In this document: piece by piece, positions 1-36,952 of the stretch
Numbering within the stretch: the first letter of the stretch is position 1
How the letters are laid out: every line of letters starts with the position of its first letter
NCBI RefSeq assembly: GCF_039555335.1
Contig: NC_092642.1
Span: forward strand, 12,560,743-12,624,742
Origin: Amphiura filiformis
Taxonomy: Eukaryota > Echinodermata > Ophiuroidea > Amphilepidida > Amphiuridae
Length of the DNA stretch: 64,000 bases
Reading direction: 5' to 3'
The notes under the pieces: model-generated
What the model was told of the DNA's origin: nothing
What the model saw: only the letters and a program-made list of their open reading frames with translations
Database searches by the model: none
Translations under genes and position numbers: made by a program

Positions 1-853
1 GTGACAAGACAGATAAAAATCCTTGTGACAAGACAATAATGTAAGCGTTTTTCATCATTGACCCATGGATTTACCCCCTTCTTTTGGAAGGTACATAGGA
101 GCTTATTTTATTCTAATTTTCACAAAGAACCGATATCAGCCCTCACTCCTTCCTTTGCTCTCACGGTCACAAAAACCTAACAATCTACTCCCTATTCCAG
201 AAAAATACAGAACTAATTTTTTGGGATTAAAAAATCATCCTGTTTTGCCAAATGAAATATAGCTAAATCCTAGTCCTTTAGTTAGTCCTAACTGGCAATA
301 AAAGTCAAATTTTAATATTTGGCCAATTTTTTGAAATAAGGGCCAAAACATGCGTTTTTAGGGTGTTTTTCGTATGCTGTGACAATCAAGCCCAAAGTCT
401 TGTACTAAGACTAATTTCAGCTTATGCATTCTGATTTTTGGAAAAGACATGTTTCATTCTTATATAACCAACCACTTAATTAAAGTAACACAAAATAGTG
501 AAAATTAGAGCAAAATTTCGGCATATACTCAAAGTCTGTGATTTTTGTGACTCGATTGTCAGAAAACATGCCGAAAATGCATGGTGTTGGCTTTTTTTTT
601 GAAGAAATGAGTTAAATAGTGAACTTTTTCTTTTATCTCCAGTTAGGACTAAATGATTGATCAGGATTGAGCTATCTTTCATTTGACAGAACTTGATAAT
701 ATTTTTTTAATCCCAAAAAATTAGTGCTGTATTTTTGTGGAAAGGGGAGTATTCTTACAAAAAATGAGTGTTCACATCTGTCTGACTACCATATTCTCTC
801 CCTGTATTATCAAACAAAAAATACAAGTGAACTTGTTATCATTTCCATAACAG
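1..853. other. Upstream non-coding DNA, mostly a fold-back MITE
   Basis: No convincing coding exon is visible before 854. The initiator-methionine exon expected a few codons upstream of the first POT1-like exon was not found here. Most of the stretch is taken by the fold-back element listed separately. Confidence 0.5.
184..753. mobile_element. Fold-back MITE with about 100-bp inverted arms
   Basis: Positions 197-295 and 639-740 are inverted copies of each other with scattered mismatches and small gaps. Matching continues weakly outward for another dozen bases. No coding capacity lies between the arms. This is the structure of a non-autonomous TIR element. The family is not recognised. Confidence 0.75.
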
Positions 854-959
854 AGAAGTTACTTATATACCAAACTGGTGGATGTGAAAGAGACCAATTC
901 AGTGAATATCTATGGTGTTGTCAAGTTCTTCAAACCACCAAAGATGACCAGCGGGGCAG
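854..959 (+). CDS. POT1-like exon A1
   Basis: Preceded by acceptor CAG at 851-853 and followed by donor GTACAG. Reads YLYTKLVDV...YGVVKFFKPP, the start of POT1 OB1. It leaves one base over (phase 1), which joins exon A2 to give a D-Y-Y junction. Confidence 0.78.
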
Positions 960-3662
960 GTACAGTATAGTCTGGTCAATCTATCTAAACAGACAGTAAA
1001 TTCTACCTCATTATAGAAGTAAGAATACTGCTGTGATATGGCTTAACTCAAATTCCCCTTGACGAACTGGCCAATTAACAGCCCTCTTGGCTTACAAGAC
1101 CAATGATCACTGACCGGTCATGTTGTATACACATAATATAGCTATGCAGAACATGGAGAGGGGATCAGTGGCATTTGATTTACACAGACAGAGATTATAC
1201 CCAGCTGTGAATATGGCCTGGAGGGCTATTATCAATTAGTGAGCAATGACAGTTTCGTGCTAAGACTTAGCACTTTCTCAAATTGACTGACCAATTCCTG
1301 CACATCGTCGGCAGAGACGAGGGGAACTACTTTCTTCCGCCTATTTACGACCAAGTCCTAACAGCGCCATCTACGCCAGCTCTATCCAGAAGCAGCCGAC
1401 GATATGCAGGAATTGGTCAGTCAATTTGAGAAAGTGCTAAGTTTTAGCACGAAATTGTCATTGAGGTACGTAACATCAACCCAAATTTTTGGATTTGTAC
1501 AAAGAAACTCTCAAATATCTGGGTTGCTAGGTATTTTCATTGTTGACAAAATCAAAGTTGAAAAGTAACAATGAGGTTCTCGTGTATGCATATGCAATTT
1601 GATTTGAAGCATGTTGAATTCGGCAGTCTCTCTATTAAGTTGACACATACCAAGTATACATGAAAAAAAACCCCACAATTTTAGCAGCCAATATGCTTAG
1701 GTGTGGACAATCTTTTTTGACTTGCATCTGGTGCCACATTCGTAATTTAAATTCTTTTTCAGTCAGTTTTTCAACAAACTTTTTCAATTTTTAGAAAGTA
1801 TTATTTGAAATTGGGTTAAGTTTCATATGGACCACCCTGTATATTAAATCAATTATTTGTGTTATATTTTACAGATTATTACATGATGATGACTCTGATA
1901 GATCCCAGCTTAATATCTGATGCTTCTGATCTGGATGGGATAGACAATTCAAAGGGATTAAAATGCAACTTGTTCAGAAAAGAGATAAAGTTGTTGCCGC
2001 AGGTCCTCAGAGTCGGTGACATTGTAAGACTCCATCGTGTCAAGGTGAGATTACATCCAGGACATAGTTCAGGGCATTGGGGGGTGTTCCATAAGACTGC
2101 CCAGGAAGGATGTGATGTAGCACATCAAAAGGTGGGGGGGTACTTTGCAGGTGAAGTCAATTTTGAGTTCAGTATTACTGCTTTGAGAGCATTTTGCAAG
2201 CTTTAAAATGACACCTCATTTGCTAAAATTGATCAAAGCATTTTATATTTTCTAAGTGAAAAAGCATCCCAAAAATTATTTTCCTTTTTTTTTCTATATT
2301 AATTTATATCTTGAAAAGCACTTTGCTGCAAACGGAATCATTTAGGCTGTGCAATTGTCTATTGAGTATAGTGTCATATTCAGTGTTTCTATATTACAGA
2401 TAACATGTACTTTTTATTCTGTAAAGATTTATATCAGATTAAAATTGCAACCCCTCACTGGTGTAGTGCTAGGAGATTTTGCTTTGGGTTCAGTTCCCAG
2501 TCCTATTGGAATTTTGTAAATCATGCATGTTTTGTTTTTTTGTAAGTAGAGAAAGCTGAAGTCCAAGATAGATCATAAGTGCTCATGAATGAAGTTGGCA
2601 CCTTGGTTAGCTGATTGGTTCCCATGATTAGGCACAGAATGACCCTCCTAGTGGAACAACTTTGAAGAAATTGGGTTGTATTTCAAAATTAGATCCAAGA
2701 ACCCTTGGTATAGTGACACAATAGGTCAGGTTCCATCAGCCAAACTGTGCTCAGTTACTTCATACTCTTCATGTGTCTTGGTTATCTGTGTATCTGTGAC
2801 ATTTACAGACCTCACAATTTTCTCAACAGGTGCAGCTATACAACAATGAGCTACAGGCTGTGTGTAACCCTGGATTTGCTTCACTAGTATTTGATGGTCG
2901 CATGGGAACACCACTGAAACCCAGGTCTAGTTCAGCTGAGTACACAGTAACACAGCAAGATAAAGATAAGGTAACAAACCCCTTGCAAGATGGCAGATTT
3001 ATCATAGCTTTATATAGACAAAATCCTTTGTCTTGTTCACTGCGCATATTTTGTATTAAGCTTGGAGTGACGACTGTATAACTTACCGTGCGTATGGCGT
3101 CAGATTCATGAAAATATTTTTCTTGTGGTAAATCTGGAACTTTTTTAATATATAAGTTCCTCAGTTATCAACCCAGAAAGTTGGTGAATGAGGGCATCAG
3201 TCTAAACATACACCAGGCAATGCCGAGTCAGTACTCTTGGTCTAATCGCTATGGTTGAGAGAAAATCACATGTTGACAAATCAACGTACAGGCCTTGCCA
3301 TTTTTTTATCACATTTTCCAGCAAATTTGTCAGTTTAAAATTTTGGAAAATACAAGCAATAAATCTTTTAAATGTTTCAATTTTGGTAGGTGAGAGAGCT
3401 TCAGCGATGGGCAAACACCGTCCAGCTTGTAAGAGATTCAAGTCATCAACAAAGAGAACAGGCCCCAAGACAAAGAACACAGAGTGAACACACAAATACG
3501 CAGGAGGTGGCAGGTGGCAGCTCAAGTGGTAATTTGGGACCACCAGTAGTGTCTACTATCCAGCACCAAGATGGTACAGGTACACCGGCTCCAAGAACAC
3601 CAGACAGGCAGACAGCTGCAACTACGCAGAGCACATCTCAGAACATGGTACAAAGAATATAA
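854..3662 (+). CDS. Upstream partial POT1-like copy (first OB fold only), exons A1-A4
   Basis: Four exons (854-959, 1875-2044, 2830-2970, 3390-3662) with canonical AG/GT borders join in frame and encode the first OB fold of a POT1-type telomere protein. Visible landmarks are YGVVKFFKPP, a CNLF strand, GDIVRLHR, GFASLVFDG and LQRWANT; these match the ssDNA-binding OB1 of vertebrate POT1. After RWANTV the frame continues into about 80 residues rich in Q, T, S and P and stops with TAA. The second and third OB folds are therefore absent. The same four exons recur at 4735-8025 and the introns are also partly alike, so this is a tandem duplication. It could be a separate short POT1 paralogue, a set of alternative 5' exons of the downstream gene, or a decaying copy. 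All four exons are open. No initiator ATG exon was identified. Confidence 0.7.
1233..1475 (+). mobile_element. Penelope-like element termini in inverted orientation (solo remnant)
   Basis: Positions 1244-1312 and 1395-1463 are near-perfect inverted copies (69 bp). Between and through the right arm, + strand 1322-1429 reads GNYFLPPIYDQVLTAPST and ends in TGA. This matches the C-terminus of the Penelope-like protein at 48.6-51.3 kb (GNYFLPHIYDQLLTAPPT). The element has been reduced to its terminal repeats and the last 35 codons. It lies in the first intron of the upstream POT1-like copy. Confidence 0.72.
1398..1459 (+). ncRNA. Hammerhead-ribozyme-like motif in a Penelope terminus
   Basis: Stem III GACGA (1398-1402) can pair with TTGTC (1455-1459), with one G-U. 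U1403-A1404 stands at the expected cleavage position. Stem I is AATTG (1411-1415) with CAATT (1422-1426). The core TTGAGAA follows. Stem II is GTGCTAA (1434-1440) with TTAGCAC (1444-1450), then GAAA (1451-1454). Compared with the canonical CUGANGA core, C3 and G8 are replaced by U and A, which can still pair, and one extra A precedes stem II. Activity is uncertain. Confidence 0.38.
1875..2044 (+). CDS. POT1-like exon A2
   Basis: Acceptor TTTACAG, donor GTGAGA. Encodes the MTLIDPS strand, CNLFRKE and GDIVRLHRVK of OB1. Compared with its downstream twin it carries about eleven extra residues (around SDASDLDGIDNS) in a surface loop. Confidence 0.78.
2445..2510 (+). repeat. Possible tRNA-derived SINE fragment
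   Basis: The stretch has an A-box-like TGGTGTAGTGCTAGG and a B-box-like GGTTCAGTTCC about 35 bp apart. There is no tRNA cloverleaf. It lies in the intron between exons A2 and A3. Confidence 0.3.
2830..2970 (+). CDS. POT1-like exon A3
   Basis: Phase-0 exon reading VQLYNNELQAV, then GFASLVFDGRMGTP and PRSSSAEYTVTQQDKDK. It matches the human POT1 GFASLTFEG region. It is identical base for base to exon B3 at 7302-7442. Confidence 0.8.
3390..3662 (+). CDS. POT1-like exon A4 with low-complexity tail and stop
   Basis: Acceptor TTGGTAG. The first 32 bases match exon B4 with one mismatch (VRELQRWANTV). Similarity then ends abruptly and the frame runs through a Q/T/S/P-rich tail to TAA at 3660-3662. 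An internal donor is possible but none is clearly better. Confidence 0.55.
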   Translation: MRELQRWANTVQLVRDSSHQQREQAPRQRTQSEHTNTQEVAGGSSSGNLGPPVVSTIQHQDGTGTPAPRTPDRQTAATTQSTSQNMVQRI

Positions 3663-4734
3663 GATGAAATATGTGTGTAATTTTTTTAAGAGATAAGTCT
3701 TGGTGGGGATAATAATTGTAAGTGTGCTTAGAACTAACAACCTGTCCCAAAATGTGAAATATCCTAGATTGATATGATAAGAGTGGGTGCAGAACCTGCA
3801 ACCAACTGCTCTTTGCCTAGTTTACAACTATTGTTGAGACATTAATTAATGATATGCACATGAATGAAAGGAAATGATTTTCACCAATAATTTGTGGAAC
3901 AAATTAATAGTTCAGGGACTGTCAAAACAACAATAGCAAAAGTCAACGGCATGAGAATATAATATCATTGTGGAGGTTTCATAGTATAGAATTTCAGATT
4001 ATTAATACTAAAATGGCTCCTGTATATTGCGCCGGACAAAGATGGTGATGCAATGACATTTTTTTGTAGGGCAAAGCTCCTTTTGCCATGTGACGCTGTC
4101 ATCTCACATGCACTTCACATGTATTGGAGTGAATAGTTACCCGTTATTTGTCTTTTGGAAAAAACATATGGTGCAATCAAACTAAATAAGTCTGATGTCG
4201 ATCAAAATCAAATTTCAGTTTCAATTTCATTATATGAGCCACTCTTAGAGCTTTCTTTTGCTGAAAACCACATAATAATTATACTTAGGGTTCCAGAGAT
4301 ATGACCATTTTAGTGTTGATCAGAACAATAAAATGCAAAGGAAGTTGAATACTATTATTGGCTATATCTTAAAATTAATATTCCCGACATCCAACTTATT
4401 TTGCTTGATCGTATCACATGTATCGTTGTTTCATTTCACATAACAATATATCAATAAATTATGTGTATAGCATTATGATACGTTGTTATATGAAACAGAC
4501 AACGATATAACTAAAGATGGTTAGCAACTTTGTCAATTGAAGCAAGATATAAATTTACAACAAGAACCAAAAGGAAGAAATGGGTAATGTTTTAAGATTT
4601 CCTGGAGTTCAAAATTTGTGTCATTATGCTTGCATATGTGTGTTTGCCTATCTGTGTGTATGTTCCCAACTGTCTACCATATTATATGTCGAAAAATACT
4701 GGCTTTAAATGAAGTTGTTATCATTTTATTACAG

Positions 4735-4840
4735 AGAAGTTTCTTATATACTAAACTGGTAGATGTGAAAGAGACCAATTCAGTGAATATATATGGTGTT
4801 GTCAAGTTCTTCAAACCACCAAGGAAGACCAATGGAACAG
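4735..4840 (+). CDS. POT1: POT1 exon B1
   Basis: Acceptor TTACAG, donor GTACAG. Encodes YTKLVDV...YGVVKFFKPP, the first strands of OB1. An in-frame ATG exists upstream, but it precedes the acceptor by about 90 bases and lies in a Cys-rich unlikely reading. A separate start exon is more probable. Confidence 0.85.
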
Positions 4841-7800
4841 GTACAGTGACTAATTGGGCAATCAAGGGTTGCTAACTCACTCATGAATAATCATTGGAAG
4901 ATGCAAGATGAAAATATATCTTGGGATTTTTTTAAATTCATTACTGTCTTTTTTAAGAAAATGGTATATTGAGAAAATGAAACTTACAAAAAGTATGACC
5001 GTACTTATAAAAGAATTAAAGTAAATGTGTTGTAGACATAATTTGTTATTTAAATGTATGATATCCACTGGAATTAAGACATATCAGAAAGTTTTGGTCA
5101 CAACCTTTGACTTCATAAGAAGACGGGCAACTCAGGTTTAGGGGATCAGTGCATTTTGTACACTTGACCTTAATGTTGGGTCATGCACTCTTGGTATCTT
5201 ACATTGGCCACAAAATCTGGATATAAGTACTTTTTAGGAGGTAATATAAAACGGAGTCATCCCATCACTCAATTACACCTAGACGTTCGCTTTTCGTATC
5301 TCTTTCCTTGTTGGAAAGGTATAATGTTGAGGAGATAGGAACATGTACCGAAGATCCGGGACCTACTCTGCCATGTTTGGCTGAGTAATGGTACATGAAC
5401 ACGGTCTTTTGTGCCTATGTAAATTAGTCAATGTTAAAAGCTGTGTTTATACCCATGGGTTACTCATCATCAGACTGAATCATTGTCGCTAACTACATAA
5501 GTTATGTGTACAATTTTAGAGAACGTTGACCGACAGAGGGTGTCAATATAGGCATACGTGTCGCTTTTGAAAAACAGCGAATCATGCGCATGCTCAGCAG
5601 GCAAATACGACGGCGATTTAGTACACTGATCATGCGTGCGATTCAGATTTCTGCAAAAGCGATTGAGTATAAATGCATCTTTAGAAATGACCGGCGATTG
5701 TGTATTCTCAAGTGGGTTTTATCATGTTAATTAGTGACCTGACACACATTTGTATTGGTTCGATCAAGCATTGAAATGCTGTCATTTTTTGTACTGGATC
5801 GTTCAAGCATCTCCAACAAATTTTTCAATGTAAGTGCCTCTGGCCCTAGAAGTAAAAAACGGATACTATGGCCAGAGTTCTAGGGCTAATTACACCAGAA
5901 CATACAAATGATGATGATTATAGTTATGATAAAAAAATTGAAACAATACTCTAAAAGTGGAAATTTTTGCAGTACATTAAATTTTGTGCTTTTCACGCTC
6001 AATACAGCTACCATGAAAATAAAAACTTGCGAATATGTTCTATGAACATCTGAAGTGGTTCAAAATCGGCAAGGCGCAAAAACTTACATGAAAATAACCA
6101 CAGTATCTTATAGGGCTCTATGATCAACTATTTCACTTCTACTTCTATGACATCCATGTGTTGTATTTTACAGATTATTTCATGGCATTGACACTGATTG
6201 ATCCCAGCTTGACATCTGATAGAGGATTAAAATGCAACTTGTTCAGAAGAGAGTTGAAGTCATTGCCAAAGGTCCTCAGAGTTGGTGATATTGTTAGGCT
6301 ACATTGCATCAAGGTAAGATTCCATCAAGGGCATGGTGCAAGCGATCCCAACCCAGTGGATGAGCTAACAACTTCCCATAATCCAATGTAAATGTATTAT
6401 TACTAGGGTTTCAACTGCTAGTTGAGCTAGCAAATAAGAGGTTCCCAGTTCAATTCCTGTTGGAGACACAATAGAAAAAGAGAATCTCCATCAGGGATGT
6501 AGCTATGGACGGTGGTGGGTGGCAGAGCCCACCACTCAGTTTTGGAGCCAAAAACTCAGCTGCAACTTTGGCACTGGAGCCCACCAAAAATGCACAATTT
6601 TATTGGATTAGTCAAGAATTTGGTCCATTTTGGCAAAAAATTGCCAAATATGCAAGATGTTCATTAAATGCCGCCCACCACAAAAACTATCTTAGCTACA
6701 ATCCTGATCTTCATTACTGCATTTGAATTGTGGTGCAGATGCAGTGATTAACAAAAATATCACAGCCAGTTCCGATCAGGATAACACCTGGCTGACTAGA
6801 CTATCTACCCTGAGGGATTATGAGAGAACAGTGCCTGACATTGACTGATTCAACCAGGTTAAATACAAAATAACAAAAATAAAAACGAAACAAAAAACCC
6901 TGAACACACAGCCAAAGTGGGTTCCCTGCATGCATTGATTCTGGTTTATTTATAGGCTGTTGATAGGCTTCCAAATTGAGATTTGATGGTAAATGCACAA
7001 GTGATATAATGAAAGACTGAGATAAAAAGACTAGTTTGCGTGTGATGTCATCTGTCAATCAAACTCGAGCATAGTTTGTTTACAAGTGTCGTGATTATAT
7101 GAGTTGCTGAACGGGGCGGTAAAACCGGGCGCCTTATTGTTAATTTTGCACCTTCAAACATACAAACCATCTCAAAAGTTAGGCCTTTATAGTAGGAAAC
7201 TTTCTTTTGCCAAGGCACCATGTCAACAATGCCTGTAGAAAAGTTGTGTTTTGCCTTGTAAAAGTACATAATTTTTTTGAATTGTACAATTTCCTCAACA
7301 GGTGCAGCTATACAACAATGAGCTACAGGCTGTGTGTAACCCTGGATTTGCTTCACTAGTATTTGATGGTCGCATGGGAACACCACTGAAACCCAGGTCT
7401 AGTTCAGCTGAGTACACAGTAACACAGCAAGATAAAGATAAGGTATACATTGCAAACCTATTAGAAATTGTCAACATTTCATCATGAAAAGATTATAGAT
7501 TAAAAACTTGCGTATTAGGTTGAAAAACACAGAGTTTGTTTCTGGTAGGTGGCCTAAAAACCAAAATGCTTTAATTATGTTTCAAGTTGGAGTTATGATG
7601 ACATGCCTCAGATTGCCAATGTTAATATCAGTAAGATATCAGTTCATTTATTTATGCTGCCAAAAATTGATGCATGTCGCCTAATGTTTTTTAGACTTGT
7701 CTGTTGAGAAAGTAATTACTGGCAGACAAATCAATGCCCAGGCCCTGACGTTTTTTGCTATTTTTCCATCAAAATTGTCACTGTAAATTTAGGAAAATAT

Positions 7801-10800
7801 TAGAAAAATGTTTTTTATTTTCAATTTTGAGCAGGTGAGAGGGCTTCAGCGATGGGCAAACACCGTAATGCGCAGTAGTGAAGGTCTGAGCAATCCTAGT
7901 CGGACGTTATCTGATGTGTTCATCGGCCAGTATTTTGATCTGACATGTCAGGTAGTGGCCAAAGCATTGCTTCCCTCAGAGTCAGCTGTGTTGTTAAAAG
8001 TGTGGGATGGAACCAAATGTTCATGGTGAGTAAAGTAGTGGGCTATTTCAGTTGAAAGCCATACCAGGTACACCTTCTATGGTCTCTTTGATGCCTTGTG
8101 AAAAGCCCCAAGATACAGTGGCGATGCTGGTGGGCTTTGACTGATCATGATAGCAAGGTACAGGTTTGACCCTTGATGGTGGTATGATTTGTCTGGATTT
8201 TTCCAGATTTTCTGGATTTTTTTGTTGCCAAAATTTACATGATTTTATAGATTTTCAGCCCATTTTAGGGTATTTTTGACCAATTACATGCTGTTCTTCT
8301 GGATTTTTTTTACTATTTTCTGGATATTTCACAAGCTTTGAATCACACTCCTGATTCAGTGTGGTCTTTGATAAGTACCATGGGGGAGGAGGTTGAAATT
8401 GTCAATAAAGGGGTCAATAATTTGAAAAAAACCCCACAAAACCATGGGCAAATTTAGGGTTGGAGGCTTTTATGGGGTGAGGATTGGAAGCTTAAATTTG
8501 AACTAATTTGGAGGTTGAACCCCTACTACCCCTCAAAAAATGGTTACAAAGACCACACTTGTGCCATTGTGCTGTGCACTTAGGCAAGGCACTTTATCTA
8601 CGAGTTGTTTTACGCCTATTCTTTAAACACTTCTATTCAATTAAATATATCATAAGTATACCAAATTTTGATCAAATAAAATCATACATTATTACATTTT
8701 ACAAGGAATTACCTAGGGCTTAAAATTGATCAGTCCTGTTGTTGCTATGCACCTCTGATTGGCTCTAATATCAAGTATGCGTATTGCATCGATGCACACA
8801 TGCTGAATCGTGTTATATTGTGTCATATCACATGGTTAGAACCAATAAGATTGCAGGAATGTTCTCAAGTGTTTAAGAATTGCTTTTACATTCAGGGTTT
8901 AGCATTTCACATTATATTCATTATAATAAGCAACCTCAATCACTGTTTAACCTGCATTTAAAATTGCACCCATGAGAAGGAATTGCACCACAACTTATTT
9001 GCACCTCAAGGAAGAAAATGAATATCAGGGCTATCCTTGATTTTGTCACATATTTGAATATTTGATTGCAGGCCTGTACGAGACATTGATGCTGGTAATC
9101 GACCCATAGAGTGGGATGATACGGCTGCTTTCAGAGCAGAGGGGTTAACAGTAGATGTGTGCCTCTATGATGATCATGTTCCAGCAGGAGAAAAAATTCA
9201 GGTGAGAATAAAAGCACTTTGAGCTTGAATGCCAGTCGGTAATAGTGCACTGAATGATTTTGTAATGTAACATGTTGTCTTGGAACATTAACATTTAATT
9301 TGATTTGTAGTATGTACCAAAATCTGATTCATGCTGTTATGGGAATCTTTGCAAAAATCAATCTCACAGAATTTTAAAACTTAGTTTTGAGGTACGTACC
9401 ACTTTTTAGTTGCACCCTAAATCACAATTCAGATTTGGACATCTTTGGAACAAGCATTTGATGTGTTCATTTAAATTGAAGACTTCAGAACTAAAAGGGA
9501 GGTTAGGTCACATTGAGTGCATTTCAAGATCAATGGTAAAGGTGGTGGTTTTGTCCTTGCAGTTTCAATGCTCTACAACATTATTTAACTATGAAATTTG
9601 CACATGGGCATAGAGAACCTCCTTGTAGCTGAAACTACAGGGCAGTTTTCAAGATTTTGTGACTTAACCCCTTTTAAGATCTAGGTTCCTCATTGTGCAT
9701 CTACAATGTATTTCAGCAATCTTATAAAGCCAAAGTCTGAATTTATCACGAAGTTAGAAAGTATGTATATACATATATGTTCTTTTATTTCCATGTGAGT
9801 GTGATATGGCAGGTAAATTTGGAAGCCATAACTTAGTGCCAGTTGTCGGTGCTTAGCCATCAATGTTATGCATAAGGAGTTTCTTGCAACTTTTATGGAA
9901 AATGCCTAGCAATTGTAGTGTTACCAAACTCTGGTAGCATTTGCACAATTGCTACCAGAGTTCTGTCGTAGCTGTTGATGTAGTGACAAAGTTGCCTTCA
10001 AGTCAACTGGTTGCAATTTGATGCAGGGTATTGTTGGGTTTTATTGATCAGATCTTGGCAATCTAATTTTCAATAAGCGACTGAAGTCACATCACAAAAA
10101 AAATGCTATGCTCCTTGCGATTTCTTAGTACAATTTTTCGGTAAATCTCATAAGCCTATGCGGATAGACCTGTGATGTTGTCTTGCTGATGCACATATCT
10201 TTATTGTGCACTTCACAGCTTTTAAATGCGCAGTAACTATGTTCGCTAAATGATGCGCAAATTGGCGTGAGATCAGCCGGAAAGCCTTATGGGATTTACC
10301 AAAAAGATCAATTTGCTATGATCAATTGGATCGATTTAGTTATGCTAATTTATCAATTTGTGGAGTATTTAAGACAAAATATTTTGCACTGCTGAATTGG
10401 GCTTTGATTGTTTTTGTTCATTGTATGTGATCTTTAGTTTCAAATAAATCTGTCTCACATTCATTTCAGCCTGGAAATTACATATGTCTTTACAACCTTC
10501 ATGCACTCAAGTATTCTCCTCCAGGGGAGGTGGAAGATCACCCTGTGTCTATGGGAGAATTCTGCTTACACAGAGGGACATCATATGGGAGGGGTGTTAC
10601 TGTCATGCCCCAGTATGACCCTGATATCCAAGAACTTATCAGGTGAGTTTCCAGGCCAGGGGAGGTTGAAGATCACCCTGATCTAGAGTTCTGCTTACAC
10701 AGGGGGACATGGTATGGGAGGGGTGTTAATGTTATGCCCCATTATGACCCAGATATCCAAGAATGTGAGTTACCATGAGATGCGATAGATCACCTTGTGT

Positions 10801-13800
10801 CAATGGGAGAGTTGTACTTACACAGGCGGACATCATATGGAGGGATGTTACTGTCAAGTCAAAGTATGACCCTTATTTTTCAGAACTTATCGGATCAGTC
10901 AAATATATACAGTAATATCATATGGTAGGAAGTTAGAATGCAGTTAGAATGTATAAAATGGGATGCTTTGCTTAAGAACTTTAGGCCTGACCTGTTTGTG
11001 AAATTTGCAGCAGAAAGGGTTATTCGAATGATTGTATTTGTTTATTCATGAATTACCTTTGACCAGTACACTTTCATCATAGGTCATGTAAACCATAGGT
11101 AAGGCATTTGATAAGTAAGTTGATTGTCTAAATATTATTATTAGGACTAGAAGTAGTAGCTGGCAATATTTTGTGATATTTGGAAAGAAAATGGGGGCAT
11201 TCATACAGATGTTTATCAGTTATTGTAACTTTTATAAAATGTGGAATACTAACTTTCAAATTTGTGGGTGAGTTGTGTAAGAAAAGCAACTAGTTGAAAG
11301 TTTGTAATAAATATTCATCTTTTTATTTCAAAATTCCACACTAGAAAATTGGACAATGTAAATCGTACTGGCGTACCAGCAAATTCATCCTCAACCAATC
11401 ACAGACCATCACCTCAACAGACAAATAATATTGACCAATCATCAGCGTCCGTAGCATCCAATGATCAGGGGTCAAGATCATCACAAGCAGCACCTGCAAC
11501 TCGTAGATTATTTTCTAAATCTCCCAATAGAACAGCAGCTACTGGAAGCGTATCCAGGCAAGAGGAAGTGGGTAGAGGACAGAGTAACCAAGCAACAAGC
11601 AGCCATTGCATGCAGCGATCAGCCAGTAGTAAGTTGCCACCAGCAAACATAGAATTCTTGAAATTTTATGCCCTTATCATATTAGCAATCACAGTGTGCA
11701 ATTAAAAAATTGCTCATGATCAAAATTTTTTTGTAGCTATCAGCTTTTCCAATAAATGTCATAAATATGCTATGCTTCTTGCGATTACTTAGTATAATAC
11801 AGGCATTATGGATGGAGTAGTGCCAATGTTCTTAGGAACTAACTCGGTCACTAGCAGACTAATTAGACCATGATTTGGTGTGGTTAAGAGATTGAAATTG
11901 TTTGTTAGTACACATAAATGTGGTGATTTTGCACCACCTGAACTTCCCTTTCATAGTTTTCACCCCTTAAGTCCATTGTGATCTGCTAGTGGCTAAATAC
12001 ATGACTAATCCCCAAGTTTTAAAAATTAGGATTAAAGTAATTACATCAAAAGAAAGGTGAATTGATTGAAGGAGCACTTATTGGAAGGATCTCCACAGTG
12101 GTGGCTCTAGTCTAAAGTCGGTATACCTTTCTGGAGTCAGTAATTTAGATATTATTTTTTATTATATCTTTAAATGTAATGATGAGAAGTACATGTATAT
12201 AAAAGTATACATTTTCAGGAAGTAAATGATGCAAGGAATCCAGCTAGCATAACAGATTCCTTCAAAAATGAAACACTTTCTGAGAAAATCTCAAAATTTG
12301 ATTTTACTTTACTGACTGGAGGAAGATATATTTCTTGCCTTTTCCATCCTAATTTTTCCCTTTGTCTACATGTTTTAATGTCTCTTGTTTCAGTTATTAC
12401 AGATCATGTCCATATCAAAACATCCAGCATAGCAGAGGTCAAGGCCTATAAGGAGCCGTACCTGTTTCGTGTTCGTGCACAAGTGTCAGATTTTGTGCCC
12501 AATGATGTTGCAGACTTTGTGATATTATTTTGTCCAAAGTGTCAACTAAGGTAATTAAAATATTTGCTCAAAACAGATTTCACCAAGAAATCCAAAATGG
12601 TCAAAGTATTAAAAAAACTGTAATATTGTCTTAATTTTGTCAAAACAAATATAAGTTTGTTTCTAGTAGTAGCTTTAAAAAGTGCAATGCGCAATGAGTT
12701 TTTTTAAAATTTTGATTTTGAATACAAAATGCGCAATGCGCAACAGGACCCACTTCACAATATGTTTGTTGCTGCCATGTTAGTTAACCCTTTGATTATA
12801 AACATTTTCTTTGTTTCCTGGTTGCTTCTTTTCTCTTTTTTTCTGATTTGAATGATTTTTGAGCACAAGTGTGAAAAACAAAATGCAATGCGCAAAAAAT
12901 GGCCTCCAGAATGTAACATGGGCGACTAATAGAAACAAACTTGTTTCTGTTTTTGGCCTGTTTCTTTTGAGTATAGCCATTTCCAGCAAATGATGTGGTA
13001 ATCAAAAAGGTTATTTTTAATGTAATTTGTTTGTTTGGAATAGTAAATTTCCATGTAAAATCTTGGCACCATGTCGTCAGTACTAGCAAGTAATAGATAG
13101 CTGCTGTTAATGCCTTAATTAGCCTTGACATAAAGAAATAATAAGAAATAATAAATTTGTATGTGAGATTGCTCCAGAGTTTGAGAATGAGAACATAAAA
13201 ACATCATAAGCAGTTGATACTAGCATAGTGTTTTTGAGGACATTTTTTGCATAAACAAACATCTGGTCACAGCAACTGAAATTCTGATTATTTCTGCACA
13301 ATAATATTATTGTAACCAGTGTTTGATTACCAGTGATTTGTTTCTTGATCACTGCAACTGCTATTATGATACAGGCATATAAGCATGATATTAAAGTGAG
13401 CAGAATGATAAATGTTTCTGTAATTTTGTGCGTAAAAGTGTACTGATGTCATTTGGGTTTTTTTTTATACATTTACAGGTGCAAAGTGCCGCATCCACCC
13501 AGATCTTCATCAGATGAGGCTGCCGATGCACAGGATCCACATGATGTGTCAGGTGTACAGACAAGAAGCAGGAGGAAAAGAGACGGTGCAAGTACTAGTG
13601 GCACATCAGGAGATGAGGCATTAATGAGAAGATCGACAAGGAACAAAGCTGCAGCCACTAGTGATACCTCTGACAATGACTCGTTGAGAAAAGTAAAAAG
13701 AAAGAAACTTGCAAATACTGCCAGGCAGCAAGGGATTGAACACATGGACAAATCAATTCGTAAAATTGCTGTTGTGCGTCCGTCAAACATGAAGAGAAAG

Positions 13801-16800
13801 ACTGCAAAACGAACTGTAAAGGGTCATAAAACTACAGCGGAATTAGAAGATAATCGACTGCAATCAGATGAGCTTGCCGCTACTGTTAGACTTACTGTTG
13901 AGGGTAAGTGATCTGTTTTAATTATATCAGTCCTGGGGTCCATTTCACTCAACTTTACGAAGCTTCGTAAGTCTCAAAATCATTCATAACTTACGACGAG
14001 TCGTAAGTTCCATTTCACGTAACTTACTTACAAACGGTACCCTTCGTAAGTAATAGGGATTTATTGCAGGGACTCTTCGTAAAGTTACATCTAGTATTGG
14101 GTATTCGTAATTTTTCGAACAGTTAATTGAGTTATGAAGGGTTAAAAGTTTAGTGAAATGGACCCTTGATGAACTTATTCGAAGAGGAAAATGGTGAGTG
14201 AATTATTGTTATTAAGCAGGAGATTTTGTCAGATTTAAACTGAGGTGTAGTTTATTAAAATGTTAAACATTTTTACTTTATGGGCAAGCTCATGCTGTTT
14301 TAAAGCTGTATTTTCTTGCCATGAATGCATCCTGTATAATGTGCATAGAAGGATTAAACATTTTAAGTGCAAAAAATGTGTTATCTTTGGTCATTCGGTC
14401 TTTGTGTAAAATGATATTTGACAAAACCTATATGAATGCTAGCTACTCAGTTAAATTTGTAGCTGCATACTAGTAAGTGATCAGTTATGGGCATCAGGAG
14501 GGAGGTTGTTTTGGAACTACCTTTCTCATACACTTGATCAGATTTGAATACAATTACATACATACAATAGATGAATACAATTTTGACTATATCACCCTGC
14601 ACCAGGGTTGTTGCTAGAGAATTTTTAGTGCCGGGTGGTATTTGAGGGAAATTGAAAATTTGATTGAAAATTGCCTAAATTTGGCCAAATTCTATGTGAT
14701 TTTTCAATTTTTGACACTTGAGTGCTGGGTGCCAGAGCTTAAATTGTTTATCAGTGGTGGGCTCTAAATCTGAGTGCTGGGCTCTGCCGCCCACCACCGC
14801 CCACCGTAGCTACATCCCTGCCCTGCAATACAACGTTCACACGGTACCTATGGATTGAACCATATCATGCTGATTATTCACACCTGTAAGATTAGTATCT
14901 TTGAAAAGAGCGGTATTGCATTCTATCTATGATTGCGGACATACACAGGTGATGAGTTCAACCTGTTTGTAGTGCAGGGCGATATAGTCAAAAATGGTAT
15001 TCATCATTATGACGTTACTTCTACAACGAATAGCTACTACTAGCTCATCAAAGTGTCAAGGGAAACCCAACCCATCAAATGACTTTGTACTTTTTCTGGC
15101 AGATCTAAGTGTACAAGATGCTCTACTTCTGGCACATCAAGGTGTCAAGTTACAAGGCTACCCACATAATGTAGACTCTAGGAGTACCCAAGGTGACCCT
15201 TCAACTCCGAGATATTATGTGTGTCCAAGATGTTCACCTGATGATAGGAGCACAACAGGAGAAGATACAAGTGGTAAGAACAATCTGACATTTGTTCCTA
15301 TTTGAATAGTGAGTCCTGAACTGATGATTTCTTATCCAACTCTGATGTAAAGATGTGTAAATAATAGGGCTGGTGTTGACAAGGCTGTTGTCGACAATAT
15401 TGACGACAAAGCAATTTTCCAGCTTGTCGACAAGCAAGGATATATTGTTGACAAAAATTAATCATTAAAAAAATTAGAGAAATGCTCAAGATATGCCTAA
15501 CATCGCTATTATTTGCCATGAAATAACTGTGTCAGTCTTCTATTTCATTTGTAAGTGGTGTAGATTATCTTTCCATTATAAATTCCAATATTCTGATGAT
15601 GCATAATTGCATAATATGGTGTATATGGTAATATTTTGATAAAAAACCCCGCATGATATGGTAGCGAACTTAATATTTTGACTTAAATGATGTATTGTTT
15701 TGTCGACAACTTGTCGACAATGTAAATTCTACTAGACAACAGCCCTAGTATATAATGGTACTTATTTATTCTAAAGTAAGAAAAACAAAAGGAAACATTC
15801 TTATTCAGTCGGTGTGACGTATAAAGAATCCACATAATTTGATTGGTTTTCAGCTGCATAATATGAGATGATGTTAGACAGTAACATCCCCAACTTGATA
15901 TTTTACTTGCCCTACCCTTTGCACACATTTTTTCACCATAAATCTTGCAAAGTTACGATACTGTAGTCATCAGACAAGACGTAGAATGCAGTGTGGGTAT
16001 TTCTTTTTGATGGGCACCTTATAGAGATATCAGTTTGTATAATTATATTCATATCTGTCATTATAAATCTAGTTGCCCACTGCCTTAACATGTCAGTGCT
16101 TTTTGGTTGCCCGATGTCAAATTTTTATTGTCCCTGGCTGCTAGCAATACAGGGAATACTGCTAGGCCTGATCTATATAGTGATGATTTAAAATTGGTCA
16201 AATTTCAAAAACTCCACAATATTTAGCATTTCATTTTCTGGGTAAAACAATGTTGAGTAAAAAGTTCTATGTTGTCCATTGATGTATTTATTCTTCTATC
16301 ATACCATCAGATGACACAGCCAGCTTACTTCAGTACGAGTATTGTATCAAGTTGTTCCTACGAGATGACAGTGGCACAATACCAGTGGTTGTCAAGAGCA
16401 AACATGCTGTAAGTACATCCACAAGATTGCTACAAATGTGCAGGGACATGTTTCTGGGGAAAATGTCATATACATGTACTGTTACATTTGGTACAGATTT
16501 ATAGCTATGGGTCTCCTCTATCCAGTGATACCAATATACGTATACAAACATTAATTCTAAATCTTGTGATTGCCCACATAATGTTGTTATTACATCATAA
16601 TGTGGGCATGCCCTTACAAAATTATAGGAAATTATGGCTATGCACAAAAGTATAGGCAAACTGATGAACATAATATGCATGCAATTGGCGAACATACGAT
16701 TTTCACAGCATTTTCTCCTACATATGACAGGAAATAAATATTTCAACCAACAAGAAGTCAATATCTCTTGCAATAATTTTACATGGATTTTACTGTATGT

Positions 16801-18074
16801 AGAAACCTATGGTGGGCCTCACCAACCCCCCATGATAATTTTTGATGGTCGAACCTACCCCGGTCCCCGGGTAAGGTGCTTGGGTCAACATTTTATCACT
16901 GAACTAAGCACAAAAAAGATGGATCTACGATTAGCTAAGTCCTTTTATCGTAAATATACACATTTTTATGCCGGATGAAAAACATTGGGGGTGTTTCATG
17001 CCCTTAGTAGGGCTAGGGTTAAAACATGATTGATTACCTTCTCCAGTGTCCCAATCCCCTCTTCTCTTCCACATCTTAGGGGATAAATGTTGTTAGTTTT
17101 CAAAGTGTAAAGTACCTTCTTCAACTGGCCCTCCTTTCCACTAGTTGTGTGTGATCACTCCATCTTGTTAGTAGAATCACACAATCTATAGGCCTACATC
17201 TCTTGATGTGTGAGTTTTCTTGATTCATATATCAAAAATGGTAGTTCACGTTTCATTGAACATTGTTCAGAGTTTTCCTTTAAATTTTTTTGTTAGTTTT
17301 AATTGTCCCATGTGATACAAATGTTGATCAAAATTCCAAAAATTTGAAAATTAGATGGCCAAGGTTTTAAAACTGGCCCATGTGATACAAATGTTGGTGA
17401 TCAAATTTCCAAAAATTTGAATATTAGATGCCCATGGTTGTAAAATTGGGAAACAAAACAGTGTGTTAGACCAAAAAAGGTGTCTCCGAATAAAGTTGAA
17501 AATCAGCAAAGCAGTTGGCATTGTTTTTTTTACAAAATGTGAGCGAGCAATGTGCTAATTTTTTATCCTTTCCTCTGTCAACTAAAACCAAGCAACCAAA
17601 CAAAAAATAATCCTCTAAACCAAAACATGTAAAAAAAAACCCTGAATGTGCAAAAATCTACGACTGAGACAAACCCCATTTTTTGCATTATGTATACTTA
17701 AATTAAAATTGACATTCAAGATATCTTAGACTGATTTTTAGAGTGGTTCCAGCCAAAAAATACGAGACTGGGATGTTGATTTGATCACTTATCTATTTAT
17801 GTTTATTTGTTCCTTTTAATTGCAGGAGACTTTCTTCGAAGACATACCTCCAGTGAATCTCCATGACAACGTAGAGAGTAAACTAAACTTGGAGGAGTAC
17901 ATGCGTAAACTTTGTCCATATCCCCTTGAGCAGCCATCAATGTCACCTAATGAAACGGACAATTCTCATCCGTGGCTAGATGCATGCATCATGTCATATC
18001 CAGGTCAGGTCAGAGGTCAGCACATGTACAAGTACCATTTGTTTCATACAGCATTAGCACTGGATGTGGAGTGA
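4735..18074 (+). CDS. POT1: Protection of telomeres 1 (POT1) homologue, exons B1-B12
   Basis: Twelve exons with canonical splice borders and consistent phases (106, 140, 141, 191, 130, 173, 284, 157, 425, 171, 98, 249 nt) join to 2265 nt, 754 codons plus TGA; the short N-terminal methionine exon is missing. POT1 binds the single-stranded telomeric G-overhang through OB1 and OB2 and binds TPP1 through its C-terminal OB3, in the nuclear shelterin complex. Landmarks: VVKFFKPP, CNLF, GFASLVFDG, RWANT (OB1); QYFDLTCQ, LLKVWDGT, LHRGTSYGRG (OB2); TDH, LFCPKCQL, YYVCPRC, YEYCIKLFLRDDSGT and HPWLDACIMSY (OB3). The protein is longer than the 634-residue human one. The extra length is a Ser-rich linker (exon B7) and a basic segment (exon B9). 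Introns carry several MITEs and repeats. Confidence 0.9.
6174..6313 (+). CDS. POT1: POT1 exon B2
   Basis: Acceptor TTTACAG, donor GTAAGA. Encodes DYFMALTLIDPS, CNLFRRE and GDIVRLHCIK of OB1. It lacks the insertion seen in exon A2. Confidence 0.87.
6395..6460 (+). repeat. Possible tRNA-derived SINE fragment
   Basis: A-box-like GTTGAGCTAGC followed by B-box-like GTTCAATTCC. No full tRNA fold is visible. A comparable fragment lies in the matching intron of the upstream copy, so it may predate the duplication. Confidence 0.25.
6492..6690 (+). repeat. Dispersed repeat beginning GGGATGTAGCTA
   Basis: Starts GGGATGTAGCTATGG and runs through a GGTGG-rich segment with AGAGCCCACCACTCAG. The same repeat occurs inverted at 14740-14822, and its first bases recur at 35584. 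It is intronic and non-coding. Confidence 0.55.
7015..7065 (+). repeat. Terminal fragment of the 51.6-kb TIR family
   Basis: AAAAAGACTAGTTTGCGTGT and the bases that follow resemble the left end of the TIR element at 51654. Only the terminal part is recognisable here. Confidence 0.4.
7302..7442 (+). CDS. POT1: POT1 exon B3
   Basis: Phase-0 exon encoding VQLYNNELQAV...GFASLVFDG...QDKDK. It is identical over all 141 bases to exon A3 at 2830-2970, while the flanking introns differ. Confidence 0.88.
7835..8025 (+). CDS. POT1: POT1 exon B4
   Basis: Acceptor GAGCAG, donor GTGAGT. Encodes VRGLQRWANTV, then QYFDLTCQVVAKA and LLKVWDGTKCSW. It closes OB1 and begins OB2. It ends in phase 2; the next exon restores the Trp codon. 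Confidence 0.88.
9072..9201 (+). CDS. POT1: POT1 exon B5
   Basis: Acceptor GATTGCAG, donor GTGAGA. Encodes PVRDIDAGNRPIEW and VDVCLYDDHVPAGEKIQ, matching the human LTIDILVYDNHV stretch of OB2. Confidence 0.85.
10133..10311. repeat. Small fold-back repeat in a POT1 intron
   Basis: GGTAAATCTCATAAGCC near 10140 is matched in inverted orientation by GCCTTATGGGATTTACC near 10285. No coding content. Confidence 0.5.
10470..10642 (+). CDS. POT1: POT1 exon B6
   Basis: Acceptor CATTTCAG, donor GTGAGT. Encodes PGNYICLYNLHALKY and LHRGTSYGRGVTVMPQYD, matching human LRIYSLH and LHGGTSYGRG. Two decayed tandem copies follow directly. Confidence 0.88.
10653..10900 (+). pseudogene. Two decayed tandem copies of POT1 exon B6
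   Basis: Copy 2 (about 10653-10770) repeats the CAGGGGAGGT...GACCCAGATATCCAAGAA segment of exon B6 and even a GTGAGTT end, but it carries an in-frame stop and small deletions. Copy 3 (about 10772-10900) is more diverged and ends in CAGAACTTATCGGATCAG. With the real exon this is a triplication with a unit of about 120 bp. Confidence 0.8.
11345..11628 (+). CDS. POT1: POT1 exon B7 (Ser/Gln-rich linker)
   Basis: Acceptor CACACTAG, donor GTAAGT at 11629. Encodes a linker rich in S, N, Q and T between OB2 and OB3, probably disordered. The phases (2 in, 1 out) fit both neighbours. Confidence 0.78.
12394..12550 (+). CDS. POT1: POT1 exon B8
   Basis: Acceptor TTGTTTCAG, donor GTAATT. Encodes ITDHVHIKTSSIAEV, YLFRVRAQVSDF and LFCPKCQLR. 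This is the start of OB3 with the first CPxC pair of the expected zinc site. Confidence 0.88.
13479..13903 (+). CDS. POT1: POT1 exon B9 (basic Ser/Thr-rich insertion)
   Basis: Acceptor TTTACAG, donor GTAAGT. The 142 codons hold basic clusters (RSRRKR, KVKRKK, KRKTAKR) and repeated S/T-G/D motifs such as TSGTSGDE and TSDTSDND. It occupies the place of the Holliday-junction-resolvase-like insertion of human OB3 but shows no clear similarity to it. The basic clusters could act in nuclear import or nucleic-acid contact (inference). Confidence 0.8.
13936..14165. mobile_element. Fold-back MITE in a POT1 intron
   Basis: Starts GGGTCCATTTCACT and ends AGTGAAATGGACCC. The interior has several smaller palindromes built on CTTCGTAAG. 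It is non-coding. Confidence 0.65.
14740..14822 (-). repeat. Inverted copy of the GGGATGTAGCTA dispersed repeat
   Basis: Reads as the reverse complement of the repeat at 6492: AGTGCTGGGCTCTGCC followed by a CCACC-rich run and TAGCTACATCCC. It lies in a POT1 intron. Confidence 0.55.
15103..15273 (+). CDS. POT1: POT1 exon B10
   Basis: Acceptor CTGGCAG, donor GTAAGA. Encodes DLSVQDALLLAHQGVKLQG and YYVCPRCSPDD. The second CPxC pair corresponds to GCKQC of human POT1 and should complete the four-cysteine zinc site. Confidence 0.82.
15365..15750. repeat. Possible MITE rich in TTGTCGAC
   Basis: TAGGGCTG near 15366 and CAGCCCTA near 15742 are inverted. TTGTCGACAA-type words cluster inside both ends. 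Boundaries are uncertain. Confidence 0.4.
16311..16408 (+). CDS. POT1: POT1 exon B11
   Basis: Acceptor ACCATCAG, donor GTAAGT. Encodes DDTASLLQYEYCIKLFLRD and DSGTIPVVVKSKHA, matching human [22 protein letters not shown] of OB3. Confidence 0.87.
17300..17450 (+). repeat. Tandem duplication, unit about 75 bp
   Basis: CCATGTGATACAAATGTTG and the sequence after it occur twice in direct order with minor changes. It is intronic. Confidence 0.6.
17826..18074 (+). CDS. POT1: POT1 terminal exon B12
   Basis: Acceptor AATTGCAG; stop TGA at 18072-18074. Encodes TFFEDIPPVNL, MRKLCPYP, HPWLDACIMSYPG and TALALDVE. These match the human C-terminus (FFQIPASEV, MFCPPG, YPWLECFIKSY, TTVAEDVI), which contacts TPP1. 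Confidence 0.9.
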   Translation, partial: ETFFEDIPPVNLHDNVESKLNLEEYMRKLCPYPLEQPSMSPNETDNSHPWLDACIMSYPGQVRGQHMYKYHLFHTALALDVE

Positions 18075-23389: not shown

Positions 23390-24890
23390 ACATGGGCCAA
23401 TCAGTGGTTCACTGCAGCTTAGGAACAACAAGAGTGAAGGGATACAGTAAAGCATGCACTCTGCTCTTGAAGGATGGTGTGCCGTTGTCAGATATGTCTC
23501 TGAATCCAACTGGTTGGCTATTCCAAACGTAAACTGCAGTGTGGATGAAGGTCCTGCCAGTAGATACGGTTCTATAGAAACTGGTACTCTGAGAGCATGG
23601 CAAGGCATGGACAAACTGGTGTGGGTAGCTCTTCTGACTACAAATGGTAGCAGTGTTTTCAGATCTGGTGGGCACAACTGGTGTGCATTTTGTAGAGGAC
23701 CGTTGCTGCAGCCACTTGACGTCTTTGGTAGAGAGATGTGATGTTTAGCATTGTGCTTGCTTCCTTTTCGCTCACCCCTATGATTAGAAGGACCTGCCTC
23801 TGGATAGAGGCTAATAATCCTAGAGTGGTGGTGCTGGCACTCATCCAAGACAGTGAGGCGTATTCCATCACCAATGCGAGCTTGTGCATTGTAAACGGTT
23901 GCTCTGCTTGTGACATCAAGTTTATTTGCAACTCTCCTCGGAGCGCCCAGCTTCTGTCCTGCTCAGGATGAGATGTTAGAAATGTGCTTTGTTCATGTCA
24001 GCTTGCTGTCGACTGTGACTCCCAGGATCTCCAGCTCCTTCTCAGCCAGTTTGGTGGTACCAAACTTAACGATCTAGCTTGTTTGGTTTCCTCTTCCTTG
24101 ATTTTATCACTGCCCTACGTACATTTCGATAGAGAACAAAAGTGGGCCTAGTATTGACCACTGGGGAACAGATGCATTGATGGAGGAAGTGCTTGATGAC
24201 TGGCCAGATAAGACAATTTTATGGAACGATCTGTCAGTTGGGTTTCCAAAGAGGTATTTCTGAAGTTGGTTCTGTACAACAGCCCCCATGACCTTGCCGA
24301 TGATGCAGAGCAGAGAGATGGGGCGGTACGTAGATGGATTAGACTTCGAATCTCTCTTGTGAATAGGGATGACAGATGCAGTCTTCCATTGGCTTGGGAA
24401 AACTCATTTGGAGAAGCAAAGCTCAAACAGCAGGCTGAGTGGTCTTGCAAGTTCTGCGCTGCACTCCTGATGATTCCTGAGAAGCTTTCTAACATCTTTG
24501 ACCTTGAAGGCTATTTTTCCATCGAGCACGTTGCTAGACGCTGAACTTCAGGGCCAGATACATCTGTACTGGCAAGAGTATTTTCTGTGACTTAGAGCCA
24601 CATCAGCTCCACATCCTCTGGATCAAGATCACTGTCATGAAATTGTCTAGACAATAGATGGCGATCCCGCCATTGTTGGATGTAGGTCTGTCTCTACGAC
24701 AGCTGAGGGAGTATCCTGGTATAGTTATGCAGTCAGCATCATCATTCACAGTAGCTTCCAAGAAGCTTTCCACGATGACAATAATGGGTGACTTTATTTC
24801 ATGGTACAGATTGAACAGCTCACCTATGTTTGAACGTAGTCTGATGTTCACTTCTAGTAAAGTCAGGTCCGTTTCACGTATTCGTTGCAC
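23390..24890 (-). pseudogene. Decayed CR1/Jockey-type LINE
   Basis: On the minus strand, 24890-24603 reads an endonuclease N-terminus (LTLLEVNIRLRSN, IVIVESFLEATV, IPGYSLSCRRDR, NNGGIAIYCLD). Around 24170 there is PQWSILGPLLFSI of the reverse transcriptase. From 23931 to 23409 comes its C-terminal region (MEYASLSWMSAS, LLIIG, RRQVAAATVLYKMH, YVWNSQPVGF). Frameshifts, stops and internal deletions leave no intact ORF. The order of parts and orientation are those of a non-LTR element. The clade is assigned only by motif style. Confidence 0.75.
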
Positions 24891-24946
24891 GGTTGTTTGA
24901 TGGCATGTATAATGTAAAACTCTGCCATTTTAAAGTAAAGTTGAAC

Positions 24947-24958
24947 AATGATGGCGCT
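24947..24958 (+). repeat. 12-bp target-site duplication, left
   Basis: AATGATGGCGCT occurs here and at 26038-26049, immediately flanking the LINE. Confidence 0.8.
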
Positions 24959-26037: not shown

Positions 26038-26049
26038 AATGATGGCGCT
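26038..26049 (+). repeat. 12-bp target-site duplication, right
   Basis: AATGATGGCGCT, the partner of 24947-24958. Confidence 0.8.
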
Positions 26050-36404: not shown

Positions 36405-36952
36405 GGTGTTAGTCCAACACACGCTACATGTAGTCCAAATCTGAAATGCACTGCACCAGTCCGACACACCGCTAGTCCGAATCTAAAATACACTGCGCTA
36501 GTCCGAAACTGAAAACCATTGCGCTAGTCCGAATTTGAAAACCATCGCGCTAGTCCGAATTTGAATTGGGGAAACACTGCGCTAGTCTGATATTCGGACT
36601 AGCGCAGTGTTTATCAGATTCTGACTAGCGCTGTAGTTTTCAGTTTCGGACTAGCGCCATGGTTTTCAGTTTCGGACAAGCGCAGTGTTGGACTAAAGAA
36701 GTGTTTTCCAAATTCGGACAAGCGCAATGTATTTCGGACCCGGGATTTCGGATTCGGACTAGCGGTGTGTGGGACTGAAAAATGTGATTTCAGATTCGAA
36801 CTAGCGATGTGTCGGACTGTTGCAGTGGTTTTCATTTTCGGACTAGCGCATGCTTTTTCGGACTAGCGCCGTGCTTTTCATTTTCGGACTGACACACCTC
36901 TAAGTATAGGGAATTTGTGTTGTCGGACTAGCGGTGTGTCAGACTGAGCGGT
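36405..36952. repeat. Fold-back array of CTAGTCCGAA repeats
   Basis: Left arm 36405-36590 repeats GCGCTAGTCCGAA at spacings of roughly 25-30 bp. Right arm 36591-36952 repeats the reverse, TTCGGACTAGCGC. The arms meet almost directly at TCTGATATTCGGAC. There is no ORF of note. The transcript would fold into a long hairpin. Confidence 0.85.

Follow-up and report, generated by a model that had tools for sequence, protein, structure and literature searches.

A tandem second set of POT1 OB1 exons in Amphiura filiformis and its possible short POT1 product

Judged from its sequence, the window analysed here, a stretch of 64,000 nucleotides from Amphiura filiformis (assembly GCF_039555335.1, contig NC_092642.1, positions 12,560,743 to 12,624,742 of the forward strand), begins in or just before a + strand POT1 gene, and its first exon set (set A) is an extra upstream OB1. 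In the best explanation, an old internal tandem duplication would have copied the OB1 exons of POT1, with its right end in exon 4 just past the closure of the OB1 fold. The upstream copy would close with its own terminal exon, A4, and yield a short POT1 of about 237 residues, consisting of one OB fold and a basic, probably disordered tail and lacking both OB2 and the TPP1-binding OB3/HJRL part. Most likely, this short POT1 would use only OB1 to bind telomeric ssDNA, would act apart from TPP1-tethered shelterin, and would modulate access to the 3' overhang, as reported for truncated POT1 isoforms in humans and for nematode POT proteins with a single OB fold; the downstream set (set B) would make full-length POT1. 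We put the probability that set A gives a functional OB1-plus-tail product beside full-length POT1 at roughly 0.55; the transcription of the short POT1, the use of A4, the start exon, the DNA binding and the role are all things that we infer. Set A may be a separate gene or a group of alternative exons with one start exon, and either is possible.

POT1 determines whether the cell reads a chromosome end as broken and how much telomerase lengthens that end. If set A is selected, it would provide a natural case for OB1 binding apart from OB2 and TPP1. It would also show a route by which internal exon duplication turns a POT1 with two OB folds into single-OB POT proteins like those of nematodes.

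Layout and domain content of the locus

Sets A1-A4 (854-3662) and B1-B4 (4735-8025) lie in tandem, with AG at all eight acceptors and GT at all seven donors (Table 1). Both match the Pfam family POT1 (PF02765, gathering cut-off 29), set A at 112.7 bits (1.6e-32) and set B at 111.6 bits (3.3e-32), which bears out the claim of an earlier note on this DNA that the POT1 OB1 exons occur twice in series with canonical splice sites. The same note described exons 1-4 as doubled; this holds for exons 1-3, and exon 4 is common to the two sets only as far as 3421/7866. Its statement that the upstream set stops after a Q/T/S/P-rich tail agrees with the TAA that ends A4. Set A covers positions 1-139 of the 140 in PF02765 and matches human POT1 (1xjv) at E 1.6e-30; all other Pfam matches of the A protein were below their cut-offs.

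Table 1. Positions of POT1 exons and neighbouring elements in the window
Feature	Position	Strand	Remarks
Exon A1	854..959	+	OB1 first part; Ala at human T41 position
Exon A2	1875..2044	+	10-codon insertion ASDLDGIDNS relative to B2; Arg kept at human R83 position
Exon A3	2830..2970	+	141/141 bases same as B3
Exon A4	3390..3662	+	32 bp in common with B4, then 79-codon Q/T/S/R/P-rich tail, stop TAA
Exon B1	4735..4840	+	Thr at human T41 position; upstream frame open to 4588
Exon B2	6174..6313	+	Cys at human R83 position
Exon B3	7302..7442	+	
Exon B4	7835..8025	+	OB1 end and OB2 start
Exon B5	9072..9201	+	OB2
Exon B6	10470..10642	+	OB2 end; POT1PC match
Probable OB3 exon, full-length POT1	12403..12550	+	Best E 0.0014 to C-terminal structures of human POT1, with unrelated chains starting at E 0.06
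Probable last exon, full-length POT1	17826..18074	+	Ends in stop; assigned by position and presumed likeness to the human C-terminus
Candidate start exon	65..90	+	MDLPPSFG and 2 bases; donor AAG|gtacat; weak
Inverted-repeat element	186..751		Arms 186-234/703-751, 92% complementary
Fold-back element, intron 1 of A copy	1244..1463		Arms 96% complementary

Over 135 positions, A has 60 matches and B has 59 matches to human POT1, and with this equal closeness neither copy is an obvious loser. Of two positions that we take to be DNA-facing, T41 and R83, the second is retained in A (with T41A) and the first in B (with R83C); Y36, K39, K90, G95, and R137 of human POT1 are retained in neither. F31, F62, and Y89, the DNA-stacking residues of human POT1 after Lei et al. 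(PMC4598567, excerpt), are retained in both copies, likewise K33, D42, R80, H82, Q87, Q94, and R117. OB1 is described as contacting ssDNA more than OB2 does (PMC7072152, excerpt). An intact OB1 matters, since telomeric ssDNA is no longer bound by POT1A when its first 48 residues are missing (PMC3834821, excerpt).

By homology, set B is the beginning of a full-length POT1, of which the C-terminal half is partly verified, with putative joins. The OB2 of set B reaches 98.3 bits against POT1PC (gathering cut-off 27.2). The ORF at 12186-12551, which spans the OB3 exon, gave no Pfam match by itself, nor did the segments 13447-13908, 17820-18071, 11346-11621, and 15030-15269, each tested singly. For the probable last exon, which presumably resembles the human POT1 C-terminus, there was no PDB match up to E 1 and no Pfam match when it was searched by itself. 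Directly after the exon that ends OB2, two partial tandem copies of its 3' part occupy 10521-10899. The second copy of this sequence is open in its own frame, with two codons missing, and has a donor-like GTGAGT at its end, whereas the third carries a frameshift. From its sequence, the POT1 gene seems prone to internal duplication.

Elsewhere in the window, downstream of POT1 at 53726-55157, there are exons of a gene for a TauD-family dioxygenase (PF02668); this enzyme is probably a gamma-butyrobetaine or trimethyllysine dioxygenase. Reverse transcriptase fragments were found on the - strand at 48923-50098, with a weak GIY-YIG match below the cut-off adjoining, and at 24110-26047; we take the former to be a Penelope-like element and the latter a broken LINE. 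A 26-bp type unit is repeated in arrays at 58893-60320, where TTCGGACTA and AGAACC motifs occur in either orientation, and related-looking 26-bp arrays are present in the vicinity of 36470-36953. A search of Rfam gave no match at the gathering score.

Divergence, exchange and maintenance of the upstream copy

Chance is excluded as the source of the likeness between A and B by three BLASTN blocks, 2814-3421 against 7286-7866 (69.7%, E 3e-79), 764-981 against 4636-4863 (77.9%, E 4e-43), and 1858-2071 against 6157-6340 (71.5%, E 2e-31). In the coding alignment, 382 of 419 columns are identical and 37 are mismatches. Identity is 90.5% over the 105 nt of exon 1, 81.2% over 138 nt of exon 2 (the 30-nt in-frame insertion in A being left out), and 29/30 in the first 30 nt of exon 4. 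The introns had also been called partly alike. This is true of intron 3, with a whole-length identity of 0.56 against 0.45 in shuffles (sd 0.020) that comes mostly from its last ~125 bp (72% against 47% shuffled), but introns 1 (0.42 against 0.43, sd 0.015) and 2 (0.45 against 0.43, sd 0.018) are as wholes about equal to shuffled sequence. Three of the four 100-bp ends of introns 1 and 2 exceed shuffles by approximately 0.08-0.11; for the fourth, at the 3' side of intron 2, the excess is just 0.05. Because introns 1 and 2 are hardly above shuffles, the duplication must be old, and the likeness of the exons reflects constraint, exchange, or both.

At the right limit, the copies diverge at 3421/7866 within exon 4, just past the end of the human OB1 match. 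At the left limit, homology reaches upstream of exon 1 to 764/4636, and the right end of the inverted-repeat element at 186-751, which we label MITE-like, is 12 bp away. As the homology adjoins this element, the original duplicated unit may have been longer than is now seen. Apart from the self-complementary repeats at 4164-4421 and 4421-4507, nothing else in the window matches 3422-4706 at E 1e-3. Inverted-repeat, MITE-like elements gather near the duplicated exons (186-751, 1244-1463, 4164-4421, and 4421-4507), and ATGs at 4636 and 764 coincide with the start of homology between the copies.

Exon 3 is completely identical in the two copies while the neighbouring exons have diverged. The identity extends by 16 bp into the upstream intron (15/16) and by 3 bp downstream, so that 159 of 160 bases agree between 2814-2973 and 7286-7445 within diverged flanking introns. 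The other exons, pooled, diverge enough that exon 3 should show about 10 synonymous differences; it shows none, an outcome with a probability of 6e-6 if sites are independent, or 3e-4 from exon 1 alone. Permutation of the spliced coding alignment (20,000 times) gave a 99th percentile of 80 columns for the longest identical run and never reached the 153 columns observed. A recent exon-sized gene conversion, halted where the introns had become too diverged, is the likely cause of this pattern; alternatively, strong constraint on synonymous sites may account for it.

No stop or frameshift interrupts the A copy, whose compared exons differ in length from those of B by an in-frame 30 nt. Over 91 codons (exons 1 and 2 with 30 nt from exon 4), dS was 0.39 and dN 0.094, a ratio of 0.24 (bootstrap 0.12-0.44) that pools both lineages and in which gene conversion from B could slow or hide decay. 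Evolution of a neutral A copy was simulated in 2000 pairs for each of two B omega values, 0.1 and 0.2, with an assumed 0.2 changes per site and branch. The median pooled ratio was 0.54 (B omega 0.1) or 0.57 (0.2), and a ratio as low as that observed arose in 0.5% and 0.05% of the pairs, respectively; a neutral A copy is disfavoured by this rarity. A stop codon was escaped by 12.6% (B omega 0.1) and 11.5% (0.2) of the simulated neutral copies. A decay control taken from the OB2 exon copies was mixed, in that one copy is frameshifted and the other has lost two codons yet is open. On these sequence comparisons, the A copy looks preserved by selection.

Terminal exon, start exons and rival readings

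Beyond the part shared with B4, the A4 tail runs for 79 codons to its TAA and is rich in Q (16%), T (14%), S (11%), and R (9%), with no F, W, Y, C, or K. GC content is 0.49 in the tail and falls to 0.33 right after the stop, and T occupies codon position 1 in 6% of codons. With a codon log-odds score trained on 597 codons of the B gene, the tail's own frame reached 0.44; the other two + frames came out near 0 and the opposite strand below 0. The null had a mean of -0.21 (sd 0.145), and 0.44 was reached by none of 9,076 overlapping 79-codon windows, 188 of them open. By the same measure, A1 scored 0.03, A2 0.03, and A3 0.20. The range for eight POT1 exons, each left out in turn, was -0.10 to 0.22, and three of these fell between -0.10 and -0.07, less than one sd from the null mean. 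The score therefore separates poorly, and since the tail tops every real exon tested, its value is inflated by odd composition. Openness by itself, with a chance of 2-2.6%, is modest evidence: 2.6% of background positions begin an open run as long as this, and no stop arose in 404 of 20,000 shuffled versions of the tail.

The composition of the tail is coding-like, and from the same composition it is probably disordered. No likeness above shuffles was found between the tail and the POT1 linker exon (protein score 35.0 against a shuffled mean of 37.6, fraction 0.66; DNA fraction 0.095), any of five further segments of POT1 (fractions 0.22-0.89), B intron 4 (0.135), or the 763 bp lying upstream (0.985), and the tail had no PDB match up to E 1. 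The earlier proposal of a one-OB protein with a disordered tail thus stands as a reading of the sequence, in view of the nearly end-to-end OB1, the coding-like tail, and the constraint; its disorder is a reading of composition.

Set A requires an upstream start exon, because an in-frame TAA lies two codons before A1. The candidate at 65-90, which we take to resemble the start of human POT1, would give MDLPPSFG-RSYLYT via the second AG of a tandem acceptor, the following exon then beginning at 856 (A1) or 4737 (B1). Two candidates were found in 1-850 against 1.59 expected in shuffles, which is weak. The candidate at 764-826 was rejected, as it leaves a 27-nt intron. Comparison of 1-763 with 3422-4735 gave weak matches only, the best five on the minus strand and the best with E 0.001. 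Between A4 and B1 there are two AATAAA motifs (4327 and 4453), both more than 660 bp beyond the stop and within palindromic repeats. For A, neither a secure start exon nor a close polyadenylation signal was found.

Ahead of B1, seven spliced start candidates were found against 3.24 expected. Two of these (4013-4044 and 3671-3702) were rejected because they give a stop at the junction, and the five in-frame candidates code for 1-4 residues and have weak donors. None of the seven makes a good spliced start, though a very small start exon before B1 is possible. The frame of B1 is itself open for 49 codons upstream (4588-4734), with ATGs at 4636 and 4660, and B might start from either of these without a splice. 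This open run scores -0.44 against a null mean of -0.20, with 87% of 1,392 open null windows equal or higher, and the homologous stretch of A carries a stop and frame-breaking gaps; from its sequence, the run is probably intron. A start exon common to A and B is possible and is not strongly favoured.

In both copies, each of exons 1-3 has phase 0 at its two ends, provided that splicing to exon 1 uses the first AG of its acceptor; use of the second AG would put the start in phase 2. Joins are open from the start exon through A1-A4 (237 residues, pI 9.3), from A1-A3 to B4, and from B1-B3 to B4. Also open are A1-A3 to B1 (with the first AG; the second gives stops) and A1-A3 plus 39 nt of A4 to B1. 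Such openness follows from the phases and is no evidence of use.

These frames bear on the suggestion that the two sets are alternative 5' halves of one gene, which is possible in that the block junctions keep frame and which stays at the level of frames. In its fullest form, a shared start exon would be spliced to A1-A3 or B1-B3 and either block to B4, with or without the short A4 form. The phase 0 ends of exons 1-3, the open A3-to-B4 join, the candidate start exon upstream of A, the weakness of the seven candidates before B1, and the differences at positions 41 and 83 all suit this swap of OB1. We nevertheless consider it unlikely, as three or four exons would have to be skipped as a block, A4 has kept an acceptor, a coding-like tail, and a stop that the swapped form does not need, and B1 could start itself from the ATG at 4636 or 4660, though the run there scores below the null mean. 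The same open joins would allow a protein with three OB folds (OB1-OB1-OB2) and a longer DNA footprint, made by splicing A1-A3, alone or with 39 nt of A4, to B1. Here the A3-to-B1 and A4(3428)-to-B1 joins are in frame without a stop, and the donor at 3429 scores 1.48 against 0.28 for the exon 1 donors. The fit of frame is automatic from the phases, however, the product depends on the first AG before B1, and the coding-like tail and stop of A4 point to a terminal exon, which makes this form highly improbable. A wider arrangement, itself rather unlikely, is a single POT1 gene with two OB1 modules differing at 41/83 that could give, by splicing, a one-OB binder not tethered to TPP1 and full-length proteins with either or both OB1. 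If true, such a gene could tune the length of overhang covered per POT1 molecule.

Other explanations deny set A any product. It might be an unexpressed and undecayed duplicate fragment, refreshed by gene conversion from B, as the identity of exon 3 makes sequence exchange probable and as the start exon and polyadenylation signal of A are insecure or distant. The dN/dS of 0.24 and the neutral simulation speak against such a remnant, as do splice sites that are intact despite strong intron divergence and a coding-like A4 tail for which no counterpart that could have served as a conversion source was found in the window; we regard it as doubtful, and more so than an OB1 swap. Genomes of outbred invertebrates often contain falsely doubled haplotypes, and an assembly artefact, with two haplotypes or a misjoin set in series, would also explain an identical exon 3. 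Haplotypes would be expected to have near-identical introns, but introns 1 and 2 are unalignable as wholes and intron 3 is at 56%; exon 2, at 81% identity, has a dS of 0.69, and the two copies of exon 4 are unrelated in their 3' parts. Alleles would hardly be so different. The window also contains no N, and an artefact is the least probable of all these explanations. The short OB1-plus-tail form is favoured since A4 keeps both its acceptor and its coding-like tail.

Comparison with known POT proteins

Human POT1 (1xjv, 7qxb) has the order OB1-OB2-OB3/HJRL; the B gene matches it in OB1, OB2, and one OB3 segment, and set A matches OB1. We take human POT1 to have one set of OB1 exons. In contrast, there are two sets here, with A ending after OB1. 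Tandem mutually exclusive exons usually arise by duplication of single exons. Sets A and B are like these in forming tandem, phase-symmetric, and potentially interchangeable blocks, and unlike them in comprising three exons and part of a fourth and in that the upstream block has its own terminal exon. In the literature, searched by titles and the starts of abstracts, no duplication of POT1 OB1 exons was found, which is no proof of absence. Searches with the spliced A protein gave 26 pattern stretches in prokaryote genomes and three in viruses, none confirmed by tblastn; these collections are without eukaryotes, and the result says little.

The earlier note saw in the locus new biology for shelterin, which is overstated, as truncated human isoforms (PMC7598640, excerpt) and single-OB POT proteins of C. 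elegans (PMC9881156, excerpt) are known. The truncated human POT1 splice isoforms V2, V3, and V5 are known at telomeres and, as far as the excerpt of PMC7598640 goes, come from one exon set by alternative splicing, whereas here a diverged duplicate set has its own coding tail. According to the excerpt of PMC9881156, C. elegans POT-1, POT-2, and POT-3 have one OB fold each, POT-2 and POT-3 bind telomeric ssDNA as monomers, and the monomeric POT-3 has 215 residues. The predicted short form is like these in being a single-OB POT, with a length of 237 residues near that of POT-3. It differs in that all three C. elegans proteins are single-OB and the short form here would stand in tandem beside a full-length POT1. 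Mouse Pot1a and Pot1b are a duplicated POT1 pair with diverged functions; both keep two N-terminal OB folds (PMC9881156, excerpt), whereas here the OB1 part alone was duplicated. A one-OB POT protein is already a known kind; the novelty lies in an exon block that has been duplicated next to an apparently intact POT1 and has a terminal exon of its own.
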